A stretch of 64,000 nucleotides of DNA from Gemmatimonadaceae bacterium (GTDB lineage Bacteria > Gemmatimonadota > Gemmatimonadetes > Gemmatimonadales > Gemmatimonadaceae), in contig JADZAN010000009.1 in NCBI GenBank assembly GCA_020852815.1, positions 62,001-126,000 of the forward strand. The letters are read 5' to 3'. A model generated the notes under the pieces. It was not told the origin of the DNA. It did not search any database and was given only the letters and a program-made list of their open reading frames with translations. The translations under genes and the position numbers were made by a program. Shown here one piece after another: positions 32,404 to 36,810 of this stretch. Numbering within the stretch: the stretch's first letter is position 1; each line of letters begins with the position of its first letter.

Positions 32404-33039
32404 ATGGACCGACATGCATCGTGGAGCGGGGGACCAGGCGCCGGGATTCCCATTGCGGGTGTACGCGGGCGACGCGTGCCGCCGCGGACCCCTCAGCAGC
32501 GCGGGCGGCGCAGCGCGCGGACCGCCGCATGGGACGGCGCCCGGCGCTGGTGGCTCGTCGCGTTAGGCACGCTGGCGTTGATGCTCATCCTGCCGCGATT
32601 GGCCGGCGCACAGGGGGTGCGTTCGCGCGAGGTGGCGGTCACGCTTCGCGTCACGGCACCGCCGCGTGCGATGGGCGTTACGGAGGGCGGCGCCGTCACC
32701 GCGGAGCGCGTGGGAGAATCGGTCGCGGACTTCCGGATTCCCGTGCCAGCGGCCCCGTGGGGCGCATCGCTCGTCACCGCCCGGCTGGAGCAGTCGGGAG
32801 GGGGCGACGGCACGCTCGCGCTGCGAGGCACCGATGGTTCGTTCGTTCCCTTGGGTGACGGTTGGGTCTCAGCCGCACCGAGGTCCAGCGATGGAACGAT
32901 CGGCGTTCGCCTCGCGTCGCTGGGAGGGGCGCCGCTCGACGCGGGCACATGGCGCATTCGACTCCGCGTCGCGTCGGCCGATGCAGCTGGCGGGCAGGTG
33001 GAGCGGAGCGTCGCCCTGGTTGTCCCCGATCGGCGATAG
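32404..33039 (+). CDS. exported beta-rich protein, possible partner of the pilin-like locus
   Basis: 211 aa from the ATG at 32404 (an in-frame ATG at 32335 is also possible). A basic stretch and a long hydrophobic signal (RRWWLVALGTLALMLILP) end near LAGAQG. The mature part is predicted beta-rich without cysteines and ends with LDAGTWRIRLRVASAD, which resembles the final strands of the two pilin-like proteins (AAGTYTGTLTLRAIAY). It converges with the barrel gene at 33072, 32 bp away. The signal is sure; a pilin or tip-adhesin role is only inference. Confidence 0.6.
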   Translation: MDRHASWSGGPGAGIPIAGVRGRRVPPRTPQQRGRRSARTAAWDGARRWWLVALGTLALMLILPRLAGAQGVRSREVAVTLRVTAPPRAMGVTEGGAVTAERVGESVADFRIPVPAAPWGASLVTARLEQSGGGDGTLALRGTDGSFVPLGDGWVSAAPRSSDGTIGVRLASLGGAPLDAGTWRIRLRVASADAAGGQVERSVALVVPDRR

Positions 33040-33071
33040 CGCGCCGCGCGCCGCCCGTCGTGCGCCGGCTG

Positions 33072-34712
33072 CTAGCGAACGATGGGGACGCGACGCACGA
33101 CGATGGTGACTGGCGCGGCGCGCTCGTCGCGGACCGGCGTCACGGCGCGAGGCGCCTGCACAACCTCGAACGTTCCCGCCACGAGGAAATCGTCGAGCAC
33201 CACGCGTAGCGCGAGCGCCTTCCCCACGGGGCGACGCACGAAGAAGCGCCCGCGCGAGTCGGTGTAGACGACCTCCCCACCCACGTCCACCGCGGCGCCC
33301 TCCACGGGGGCACCCACCTCATCCACCACGCGTCCGTTCAGCACGAAACGGTCGACACGCCCCCCGGGATTCCCCGCCAGCGGCCCCATCGCATGGCCCA
33401 TCCCGCGATAGACGAACGTGCTGCCTTGCGCGGAGTAGTGCACCTTGCCGTCCGGCGTGACGAAGCTGCCGACGGTGAAGCCGTAGTTGCCAAGCTGCAC
33501 GCGCGCGTTGAGGCCGATCGACTGCACGAAGGGATTGCGTGTCAGGTACGGCGAATGCGCCACCTGGTAGTCGAGCGAGAGCGACGTGAGCCCTGTCGCG
33601 ACGGTACCGCCAACGCTCACTGCCGTTCGCCCGTGCTCACGCGTGATGACCTGCAGGAGCGAGAGCCGCGAGTTGATGGTTTCGCGCAGGAGGAGGACCG
33701 GGGTGGTTACGCGCGACGGCGTGGGGCGCCACACCTGCAGCAGGTACAACTCGGCCTGCAGGCGTGTCGTGAGGTCGCGACGCGCGCTGAACGACGAACT
33801 CAGGTTGCGCACCCCTCCGGCCTGCGACGAGAAGAGCCCGGTGGAGATGGTCGCGCCGAGGAGTCGGGCATTGGCCGAGACCTGGTTGAGCGTTGCACGT
33901 TGCGGGAGGCCCTGGAAGGCCGAGTCCTGCCGGAAGTGCTGGCGTCCCGCGGAGAGGGTGAGCGCCTGCGTGGCTCGCCAGGTGACGAGGACGTTCTCGC
34001 GTTCCAGTTCGCTTTGCAGCGGCATCGGGGCCGAGGCGCGACGGAAGCCGCCTGACATGGCGGCATAGACGCCCTTCACGTCGAGGCGGCTGGAGCGCGC
34101 GTCGATCGACAGGGCACCGTAGGGACGGTCGCTCCCGACGCCCGCCGTGGCGCTCGTCGTCACGCCTAACGCTGGTGTCCAGCGCAGCGACCCGAGGAGC
34201 GTCTGCCGGTTGGTGGCAACGGCATGCCCAACGAAGGAGAGCGACCGGCGGATGTCGTAGGTGGTGCGCAGGTACGCCATCGCCCGCGACGGGGTGTTGG
34301 AGGCGAAGTACGGGGCAGCGACGGCGTTGGCGCTCGCACCGGCAAAGGCCTGCAGCGTGGTGCGTCCGCGGCGCCGTTGCACCGAGGCGCCCTGGGCCAG
34401 GATGGCGCTCCCCCCACCGAACACGTCGGTCTCGAGCACGAAGGGAAGGGCATCGTTGCCCAGGCGGAGGGTGTCGCGCCCAGACAGGAGGCGACGCGCC
34501 GACCAGCCAAGGCGCAGACCATCGAGGTATCCCACGCCTAACGACGCCTCGTAGCCGTTGCCCCACACGTTCACGACCCCGCCGTAGCCCTCGAACAGCG
34601 ACGACCCGCCGCCCTGCAGCTGGAAGACCTGGGCACCGGCGGGGGGCGCGGCGGCCGCGAGCACCGCGCCGAGGGCGGCAAGGACGCAGGCGGGGGAGCG
34701 GCGCGGGCACAT
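33072..34712 (-). CDS. outer-membrane barrel with C-terminal CarboxypepD-reg-like domain (usher-like)
   Basis: 546 aa from the ATG at 34712. Signal peptide MCPRRSPACVLAALGAVLA...AGAQ. Residues about 30-440 are alternating amphipathic strands rich in Gly, Ser, Thr and Arg (for example GYEASLGVGYLDGLRLGWSA), typical of a beta-barrel. Residues about 455-530 (FVLNGRVVDEVGAPVEGAAV, VYTDSRGRFFVRRP) match carboxypeptidase-regulatory-like/SpaA-type domains, which also occur at the C-terminus of fimbrial ushers. At about 400 strand residues it is smaller than a classical usher (about 800 aa) and has no obvious plug. It ends the pilin/chaperone operon, 5 nt after the pilin A stop. Confidence 0.65.
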   Translation of the reverse strand: MCPRRSPACVLAALGAVLAAAAPPAGAQVFQLQGGGSSLFEGYGGVVNVWGNGYEASLGVGYLDGLRLGWSARRLLSGRDTLRLGNDALPFVLETDVFGGGSAILAQGASVQRRRGRTTLQAFAGASANAVAAPYFASNTPSRAMAYLRTTYDIRRSLSFVGHAVATNRQTLLGSLRWTPALGVTTSATAGVGSDRPYGALSIDARSSRLDVKGVYAAMSGGFRRASAPMPLQSELERENVLVTWRATQALTLSAGRQHFRQDSAFQGLPQRATLNQVSANARLLGATISTGLFSSQAGGVRNLSSSFSARRDLTTRLQAELYLLQVWRPTPSRVTTPVLLLRETINSRLSLLQVITREHGRTAVSVGGTVATGLTSLSLDYQVAHSPYLTRNPFVQSIGLNARVQLGNYGFTVGSFVTPDGKVHYSAQGSTFVYRGMGHAMGPLAGNPGGRVDRFVLNGRVVDEVGAPVEGAAVDVGGEVVYTDSRGRFFVRRPVGKALALRVVLDDFLVAGTFEVVQAPRAVTPVRDERAAPVTIVVRRVPIVR

Positions 34713-34717
34713 GGCGG

Positions 34718-35362
34718 TCAGTACGCGATCGCGCGCAGCGTCAGCGTCCCGGTGTACGTCCCGGCGGCGAGGTTCAGCAATCCGCGCAGGTCCAGCTGCA
34801 ACTCGAGATTGTCGGTGCGCTGGCCGACGCCGTTGAACGGGCCGATGATGAGTTGGCGGTACAGGTGCAACGACGCGCCCGCGGTCCCGACGCCGTTCAC
34901 GGCGCTCCCGGTGAACCCGGTGAACGCCGTTGCGCGCCCGGTGGACATGCGGCCCAGCACGCGGCTCGACGGGAGGGTGGCGGCGGGTCCGGTGAGCGCC
35001 GCGGTCGGTGTGGCGAAGTAGCCGACCAGGTCGACATACCCGATGATCATCGACACATCCCACTGCGTGGTGATGCTCACCGGCGACGGGAAGGTGTTGA
35101 GCGCGTTGTCGGCGATGGACGGGAGCGATTGGACGGCGCCGCTGTTGATGCGCAGCGAGAGCGTGTTGGCGGCGGCGGCAGGGCCGCTCCCCGCCGCCGC
35201 CGTCTGCCACAGCCCCACCGGCGAGAGTGCGGGCGTGGCCGTGGTCACCGTGCTCACCTGCGCCAGCGCCGTGCACCAGGGCGCGACCACGACGCCGGCG
35301 CCCCCCACGACAGATGCAAGGCGGGTGCGCCAGGCGCCGGTCACGCGTGCAACGCGCCGCAT
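34718..35362 (-). CDS. secreted pilin-like protein A
   Basis: 214 aa from the ATG at 35362. The signal region is MRRVARVTGAWRTRLASVVG...TALAQ. The mature part has SLRINSGAVQSLPSIADNAL, SPVSITTQWDV, LVGYFATP and a closing AAGTYTGTLTLRAIAY. These align one-for-one with the product of the gene at 36220 (INSGGTQTMSNLSDNA, TPVNITTTWDI, LVGYFSNP, TAGTYNGTLNLRAITQ), so the two are paralogues. The beta-sandwich pattern and terminal strand resemble SCPU/DUF4402 pilin-type subunits. No cysteine pair. It is 10 nt downstream of the chaperone-like gene in the same operon. Confidence 0.65.
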   Translation of the reverse strand: MRRVARVTGAWRTRLASVVGGAGVVVAPWCTALAQVSTVTTATPALSPVGLWQTAAAGSGPAAAANTLSLRINSGAVQSLPSIADNALNTFPSPVSITTQWDVSMIIGYVDLVGYFATPTAALTGPAATLPSSRVLGRMSTGRATAFTGFTGSAVNGVGTAGASLHLYRQLIIGPFNGVGQRTDNLELQLDLRGLLNLAAGTYTGTLTLRAIAY

Positions 35363-35372
35363 GGAAGGGAGC

Positions 35373-36131
35373 CTAACGCTGGGCGCCGGCGCGGCGCTCG
35401 TCGGCGGCGATCACCGGACGGTGCTCGTCGAGCGTGAACCGCGCGAAGCGAAGCACGACGCGGTCCGGCTGTCCGCTGCCATCCCACGGCACCTCCACCC
35501 GGCGACGGCTGCGCGGGAAGAGCGGGAAGCCGCCGAACGGGGCGCCATGCTTTCCGTCGACGCTCAGTTCCGAGGCGAGGACGCGCCCCAGCGCGTCGCT
35601 CGTGTTCTCGAGTTCGAGGACGGCCTTCCTGCCCGCGCTATCGAAGTCGAACGAGCGCACGGCGACGGCGGAACGCGCCAGCGGGTCCTTCTGCAGCAGG
35701 TAGACCACGTGCGGCAGTTCGAGGCGGACGTTCAGCCCGGTGCTGGTGCGCGCCCCGGTCATCGCCGCGAGAACCATGAACCAGGCGGGGAGCTGCCGCG
35801 CCCGCGCCTCATACGAGACCGTGTACGTGCCTAACGGCGGAATCCGGAATGACATGGCCGACAGCCGCAACTCGACGTTGGTCGTGTCCAACGGAAGGTC
35901 GGTGAGATTCCCCTGCTCGTCGACCGAGAAGCCGCGCGGCTCCAGCACCACCGTGAGGGGAAAGAGCGTCTCGTTCACCAACTCGAACCGGCCGCGCCCC
36001 TGCACCGGGTACTCCACGACGGACGGCCGCACACTCTGCCCCTGCGCTGCACGCGGGGCGAGCCCCGCCACGCTGGCCACGGCCAGCGAGGCGACCATCA
36101 CGGTGTCGAGGAACTGGCGGAGCGGGGGCAT
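35373..36131 (-). CDS. periplasmic chaperone-like protein of the pilin locus
   Basis: 252 aa from the ATG at 36131 (a GTG at 36185 is in frame). Signal peptide MPPLRQFLDTVMVASLAVAS...AAQG. Two Ig-like halves follow: VEYPVQGRGRFELVNETLFPLT with ELRLSAMSFRIPPLGTYTV, then a second half with LELPHVVYLLQKD and VELENTSDAL-like strands. The order of an N-terminal donor-like strand region, an I-P-P stop and a second domain resembles PapD/FimC chaperones, but classical Arg/Lys cleft residues cannot be placed with confidence. It sits between the two pilin-like genes. Confidence 0.55.
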   Translation of the reverse strand: MPPLRQFLDTVMVASLAVASVAGLAPRAAQGQSVRPSVVEYPVQGRGRFELVNETLFPLTVVLEPRGFSVDEQGNLTDLPLDTTNVELRLSAMSFRIPPLGTYTVSYEARARQLPAWFMVLAAMTGARTSTGLNVRLELPHVVYLLQKDPLARSAVAVRSFDFDSAGRKAVLELENTSDALGRVLASELSVDGKHGAPFGGFPLFPRSRRRVEVPWDGSGQPDRVVLRFARFTLDEHRPVIAADERRAGAQR

Positions 36132-36219
36132 GGAGGCTGGATGGACTCGGGGAGGCGAACGAGACACCGAACGCGCCGTCGCCACATGCCGGGAACGACG
36201 GGCGCGTGGTGGGTGGGCG

Positions 36220-36810
36220 CTACTGCGTGATGGCGCGGAGGTTGAGCGTCCCGTTGTACGTACCGGCGGTCACCGACTGACCGGTGAGGTCGATTTGCAG
36301 GTACAGGTCGTCGGTGCGGCTCGACTTCTTGTTGGCGCCAGTGATGGCCTGGGAGAAGAGCGAGAGCGTGCCACCCGCGACGCCGACAGAGCTTGCGCCA
36401 CCGGTCACGACGGCGCCGCTGAAGGGGTTGAAGGCACCGCTCGTCCCGATGCGCCCCTTCACGAGCGACGACGCGATGAAGTCGGTGCCGTTCGCGAGCG
36501 CCTGCGACGGGTTGCTGAAGTAGCCGACGAGCACCACCGACGCCGCCGAGGGGTTGATGTCCCACGTGGTGGTGATGTTCACCGGCGTGGAGAAGCTGTT
36601 GACGGCGTTGTCACTCAGGTTGCTCATCGTCTGGGTGCCACCGGAGTTGATCGCGATCGTGAGCGCAGCCTGTTTGGTCGCGTTGATCGTGACCGTGGCC
36701 GTGTTGGAGAGAAGACCGGACTGCGCCTGTGCAGCGCCCGCCGTGACGGCGAGCAGGAGGGCGGCGCGGCGGATCGAGCGGGCGACGACGACAGTTCGAA
36801 GGGTGCGCAT
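36220..36810 (-). CDS. secreted pilin-like protein B
   Basis: 196 aa from the ATG at 36810 with GAGG upstream. Clean signal peptide (MRTLRTVVVARSIRRAALLL...GAAQAQ). The mature protein is rich in Ser, Thr, Asn and Gly, has no cysteine, and is homologous along its length to pilin-like protein A. It is first in the apparent four-gene operon on this strand, 88 nt before the chaperone-like gene. Low charge and repeated Asn/Thr strands fit a self-assembling surface subunit. Structure and partners are inferred. Confidence 0.65.
   Translation of the reverse strand: MRTLRTVVVARSIRRAALLLAVTAGAAQAQSGLLSNTATVTINATKQAALTIAINSGGTQTMSNLSDNAVNSFSTPVNITTTWDINPSAASVVLVGYFSNPSQALANGTDFIASSLVKGRIGTSGAFNPFSGAVVTGGASSVGVAGGTLSLFSQAITGANKKSSRTDDLYLQIDLTGQSVTAGTYNGTLNLRAITQ

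Follow-up and report, generated by a model that had tools for sequence, protein, structure and literature searches.

The DNA analysed here (the window) is a stretch of 64,000 nucleotides of contig JADZAN010000009.1 from a Gemmatimonadaceae bacterium. A minus-strand operon in this window very probably encodes a minimal chaperone-usher surface fibre, in which an outer-membrane barrel serves as a reduced usher. The operon comprises, in order, pilin B (36810-36220, minus strand, as are the three genes that follow; 196 residues with a predicted signal peptide), an exported two-domain chaperone (36131-35373; 252 residues), pilin A (35362-34718; 214 residues) and the barrel (34712-33072; 546 residues). 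The intervening gaps are 88, 10 and 5 nucleotides. The guanine plus cytosine (GC) content at third codon positions is 0.87-0.92 for the four genes, as expected for coding in this GC-rich genome. We propose that pilin B is the main fibre subunit, that pilin A, a paralogue without the donor-strand motif, is a tip or otherwise non-donating subunit, and that the barrel is a minimal usher. An earlier note on the window (the original prediction) had claimed five open reading frames, four of them tightly spaced on the minus strand, and a lengthwise alignment of the two pilins. All five frames were found at the positions claimed, and the two pilins share 43% identity across 176 residues. The note had read the gene set as a simplified or distinct pilin/chaperone/usher system; this reading is supported by the usher-like barrel, the co-occurrence of the genes and the link of the chaperone to PapD. 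A Pfam and NCBIfam scan of all five proteins gave nothing above any cut-off. Sequence searches of the PDB with the single proteins and with profiles of the pilin, chaperone and barrel families gave no relevant match.

The arrangement of pilin(s), chaperone and barrel is present in 16 Gemmatimonadota loci, that of the window counted, and the gene set is therefore far from a chance grouping. Every related locus read contains pilins of the family and has the same order: one to four pilins, the chaperone, sometimes one or two further pilins, and the barrel. The smallest operon (L089) has a single pilin with the chaperone and the barrel; one locus (L090) is cut by the end of its contig. Of the 60 nearest genomes nine, the source genome among them, have a match to the chaperone, and the same nine match the full-length barrel. 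Across the phylum the chaperone profile finds 14 of 395 genomes and the full-length barrel profile 13, with an overlap of 13 (hypergeometric P 2e-23, in a calculation that ignores relatedness). The sole genome with a chaperone and no full-length barrel match (G268) is an assembly in about 910 contigs. Pairwise distances between chaperones and between barrels are correlated (r = 0.83, 15 loci). A scan of 84,980 species, which depends on short exact peptide patterns that distant relatives would escape, located nine loci, each with Gemmatimonadetes or Gemmatimonadales/Gemmatimonas in its title. Plasmids were also searched for the gene set and gave no match. No flanking gene beyond pilin, chaperone and barrel is common to all loci, and agreement in the flanks is seen only among closer relatives. 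The original prediction had named a lack of co-occurrence elsewhere as telling against it; we find the same order in other genomes.

The barrel was modelled with AlphaFold2 from ten homologues and strands were assigned by DSSP. The model has a mean predicted local distance difference test score (pLDDT) of 76 and a predicted template modelling score of 0.66, with much of residues 141-320 above a pLDDT of 90. In the model a beta-barrel domain (33405-34631, minus strand; residues 28-436) begins right behind the signal peptide, so that an N-terminal domain is absent. The domain has 26 predicted strands against 24 in ushers, in a model whose pLDDT is, as noted, only 76. The longest gap between strands is around 13 residues, too short for a plug, and no plug insertion is seen. 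The barrel is followed by a single C-terminal beta-sandwich (33087-33347, minus strand; residues 456-542) of CarboxypepD_reg-like type, predicted to be periplasmic. CarboxypepD_reg is matched in this domain in all 15 barrel homologues; CooC_C, the C-terminus of the CS1 usher, is weakly matched in four of the 15 (best E 0.0023). One homologue (L029:4832-6946) has an OmpA domain fused behind the C-terminal sandwich (E 2.4e-22), which from its sequence would tether the proposed usher of that locus to peptidoglycan. Since this OmpA domain is of the peptidoglycan-binding type, the barrel C-terminus is probably periplasmic, as it is in ushers. The carboxypeptidase-regulatory-like C-terminus, the small size and the missing plug had all been read from the window beforehand, and each of these points holds.

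Compared with all PDB chains in Foldseek, the barrel model has FimD and PapC ushers as its ten best matches (E 1.5e-12 to 1.6e-8). The highest-ranking protein of another kind is the BtuB receptor (E 7e-8). VIA-align superposes the barrel on FimD with Z 17.0 over 349 residues at a root-mean-square deviation of 4.6 Å, covering usher residues 135-709; the beta-barrel domain by itself corresponds to usher residues ~135-656, and the usher matches lie over the pore. The best porin reaches Z 15.6, over 266 residues at 7.1 Å. One could suppose from these close Z values, and from the lack of any sequence-level match between the barrel and usher families, that the barrel is an ordinary porin or receptor which lies by chance in a pilin-chaperone operon, and that the fibres are built by something else. 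We consider this very unlikely. Ushers fill the first ten places in Foldseek, with a gap from 1.5e-12 to 7e-8 before the first receptor; in VIA-align they cover 334-355 residues at 4.5-6.6 Å, whereas porins cover 250-270 residues at ~7 Å. Alignment length and deviation are, in our view, the stronger argument for the usher likeness of the predicted fold and weigh more than Z. The barrel also co-occurs strictly with the chaperone. A barrel of TonB or porin type, the outcome that the original prediction had singled out as adverse, is thus not what the usher ranking and the plug-less model indicate.

The chaperone was related to known families by profile comparison. Aligned directly with hhalign it gives 12% against classical PapD and 0.4% against ECP chaperones. 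Aligned with a second chaperone family of the Gemmatimonadota (28 members, see below) it gives 95.9% (E 5e-9, 202 columns, spanning both domains), with reversed controls at 0.7-0.8%. The second family in turn matches a PapD-type profile at 97.2% (E 4.5e-11), and some of its members pass the PapD_N cut-off. As the second family bridges the two profiles, we conclude from this transitive match that the chaperone belongs to the PapD superfamily. The two-domain PapD-like chaperone of the original prediction is thereby borne out, at the level of a profile chain across both domains. The residues expected to hold the pilin are different. The anchor residues of classical chaperones are R8 and K112. Judged by a profile alignment at ~20% identity, on which all residue correspondences given here rest, the equivalent positions are V/I/L/F (38) and V/F (142) in all 16 chaperones. 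In archaic and alternative chaperones Arg89 is the super-conserved anchor of the pilin C-terminus, and a proline in strand D1 is the only residue invariant throughout the chaperone superfamily (PMC4654587). The position aligned to Arg89 is Trp117 in 16 of 16 chaperones, and that aligned to the "invariant" proline (position 92) is A/T/E/V/S, with proline in none of the 16. R96, R128, R136, H141 and W117 are invariant in the family and are candidates for a different anchor set.

A model of pilin B was built with AlphaFold2 from 23 homologues (pLDDT 86.6). The core (residues 49-196) is mostly above 90 and its first strand starts at residue 49. Residues 31-46 (SGLLSNTATVTINATK; 36673-36720, minus strand) form an N-terminal extension that is extended and unpaired in the predicted structure; it contains the motif V-x-I-x-A and is the proposed donor strand. 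The C-terminal strand comprises residues 183-196 (GTYNGTLNLRAITQ; 36223-36264, minus strand) with a glycine at -14. Searched against the PDB with Foldseek, the model (residues 47-196) has chaperone-usher pilins as all of its 26 best matches, E from 2.4e-3. Pilins of the PapD class have a conserved glycine at -14 and a penultimate tyrosine at the C-terminus. Gly -14, Tyr -12, Gly -10 and Ala -4 are invariant in the 23 aligned pilins here; the penultimate tyrosine occurs in none of them. Aligned by hhalign with SCPU, FimA, EcpA and local pilins, the last strand alone lines up. The pattern [VIL]-x-[ILM]-x-A is present in the N-terminal extension of 28 of the 35 pilins having N-terminal data, and it shows the alternation expected of a donor strand. 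The remaining seven are precisely the pilins immediately upstream of the barrel, in seven genomes of family f1. Most simply, these barrel-side pilins, of which pilin A is one, would be tip subunits, since a tip has no other subunit to complement; they may instead act as terminators or at the base. We note that at one locus (L093:6088-11020) the pilins number four. An additional paralogue lies there between the chaperone and the pilin next to the barrel, which shows local amplification.

Several observations weigh against a chaperone-usher assignment. The small VIA-align Z margin of ushers over porins is one. The Pfam Usher family (PF00577) is absent from all 15 barrel homologues, even at E 1; the canonical usher of the same phylum (L095) does match it. 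When the barrel was aligned directly by hhalign with ushers (FimD-type, ECP, archaic and others from the Gemmatimonadota), nothing significant resulted and only the C-terminal domain lined up. The chaperone has no Pfam match, and no member of its family passes the PapD_N cut-off. SCPU (PF05229) is matched by one of 23 pilins, at E 0.007 and 17.2 bits, below the cut-off of 22.4. The VIA-align Z of the pilin, 6-7.5, lies in a range also reached by unrelated beta-sandwiches, so for the modelled pilin fold we give the ranking of matches more weight than this score. Finally, the barrel is missing the usher N-terminal domain, which in FimD binds chaperone-subunit complexes (PMC12122975).

The last point would also suit a barrel that secretes or displays the pilin-like proteins without catalysing their polymerisation, single folded subunits being handed over by the chaperone and leaving through the pore to form a surface coat or to stay monomeric. 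Such a barrel could do without the N-terminal domain and with one C-terminal domain, given that FimD uses these parts to recruit subunits and retain them (PMC12122975), and the single pilin of the smallest operon would fit it. A conserved donor-strand motif and Gly -14 are of no obvious use to monomers, though, and several paralogous pilins per operon suit a mixed fibre; export alone is therefore an unlikely account of the operon. That the phylum does hold canonical archaic chaperone-usher genes (SCPU, PapD_N and Usher, at L095) raises the further thought of a canonical operon in decay, its usher domains lost. This deserves hardly any credence. No long homologue of the barrel was found. The short form keeps one and the same start, barrel and C-terminal domain and is free of stops in lineages as divergent as 33-40% identity; being intact, it is hence under selection. 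Curli, type IV pili and type IX secretion were set aside on the size of the barrel, the pilin fold and the absence of such genes from the conserved unit.

We thus return to a chaperone-usher fibre with a reduced usher. The system would operate as a chaperone-usher pathway does, and at least its chaperone is related by descent to those of that pathway; most likely it builds hair-like surface fibres, as Escherichia coli does pili. Pilins would be exported to the periplasm as incomplete immunoglobulin-like domains and each capped by the chaperone, which would lay a strand of its own in the pilin groove (donor strand complementation). FimD takes up chaperone-subunit complexes at its N-terminal domain, keeps hold of the base of the growing fibre with its C-terminal domains and has its pore sealed by the plug when idle (PMC12122975). 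As the barrel has one C-terminal domain only, we assign both receiving and holding, tentatively, to this domain or to the rim of the pore; chaperone-pilin complexes would dock at the single C-terminal domain and the pore mouth. An incoming pilin would then use its N-terminal extension to displace the chaperone from the previous pilin (donor strand exchange) and the fibre would thread outward. In the lineage that has the motif-less copy, pilin A would be the tip, the subunit assembled first, and the other pilins would form the rod. The plug-less pore would have to be closed by other means, for example a folded-in loop or a resident subunit. Donor strand exchange, the docking site, the tip role, gating and fibre formation itself are all inferred here by analogy.

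The operon resembles those of classical chaperone-usher pili (FimC/FimD/FimA, PapD/PapC/PapA) in combining pilin, two-domain chaperone and large barrel. Classical systems also provide the best structural matches for the predicted pilin and barrel folds and have the pilin Gly -14. The classical usher is, however, ~840-880 residues long compared with 546 here, and has an N-terminal domain, a plug and two C-terminal domains where the barrel has one C-terminal domain only. The penultimate pilin tyrosine, R8 and K112 of the chaperone and a two-domain adhesin, all classical features, are lacking. With archaic (Csu) and alternative (ECP, CS1/CFA) pili the system shares a small number of genes, a divergent chaperone and an usher C-terminal domain resembling the CooC_C or carboxypeptidase-regulatory type; archaic CsuA/B is among the best structural matches of the pilin B model. 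It differs from both in that R89 is replaced by the invariant W117, in that no SCPU match is above the cut-off and in that the proposed usher has neither N-terminal domain nor plug. The system falls outside the sequence and domain definitions of the classical, alternative and archaic classes. We lean towards a fourth chaperone-usher branch beside these three, with an usher of pore plus one periplasmic domain and different chaperone anchor residues.

A second, wider chaperone-usher-like system occurs in the Gemmatimonadota (L096:6347-11293; L098:2552-7530; L140-L149). It has a PapD-superfamily chaperone, then an outer-membrane-type protein of ~900 residues that carries NPCBM_assoc and SdrD_B domains and does not match Pfam Usher. 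Its chaperone family, found in 57 of 390 phylum genomes, is the closest relative of the operon's chaperone detected outside the latter's own family. The two systems are alike in that the chaperone adjoins an outer-membrane-type protein ending in an SdrD_B or carboxypeptidase-regulatory-like domain. They differ in their pilins and in that the ~900-residue protein has no significant profile match to the barrel, the C-terminal domain alone lining up. No genome with both systems was seen, but the expected overlap is only ~2 and this is not significant as mutual exclusion. At L097:6058-11057, in a single-contig genome (G024), a pilin-like protein and a PapD_N chaperone accompany a 1015-residue protein without Pfam match; over its C-terminal part this protein matches the corresponding part of the L096-type protein (86.8%). 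One Gemmatimonadota genome has a canonical archaic operon of SCPU, PapD_N, Usher PF00577 and SCPU (L095:6607-11283). Canonical PapD_N and SCPU were searched for in the source genome and none was found.

A fifth, convergent gene (32404-33039, plus strand) lies 32 nucleotides from the barrel stop and encodes an exported protein of 211 residues of no known family. Its third-position GC is 0.78. A homologue (42%) is present in one of the two other genomes of the genus, where it also adjoins the 3′ end of the barrel gene, and the remaining relatives searched gave no match. The pilin-like strand motif claimed for this protein in the original prediction did not hold up, as the pilin profile does not find it. 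The gene is outside the conserved system.

Our searches of the open-licence literature turned up no description of an usher that lacks N-terminal domain and plug, and none of chaperone-usher pili in the Gemmatimonadota. Both the N-terminal domain and the plug count as integral parts of an usher; the barrel described here has neither and is stable across two bacterial families. None of the components reaches a Pfam cut-off for the role it has here, and surveys that rely on Pfam therefore miss systems of this kind. The divergent chaperone may represent a third way of holding a pilin. If our reading is true, the operon would show a minimal usher machine, in which recruitment and gating without an N-terminal domain or plug would become testable, and chaperone-usher pili would extend into the soil phylum Gemmatimonadota.

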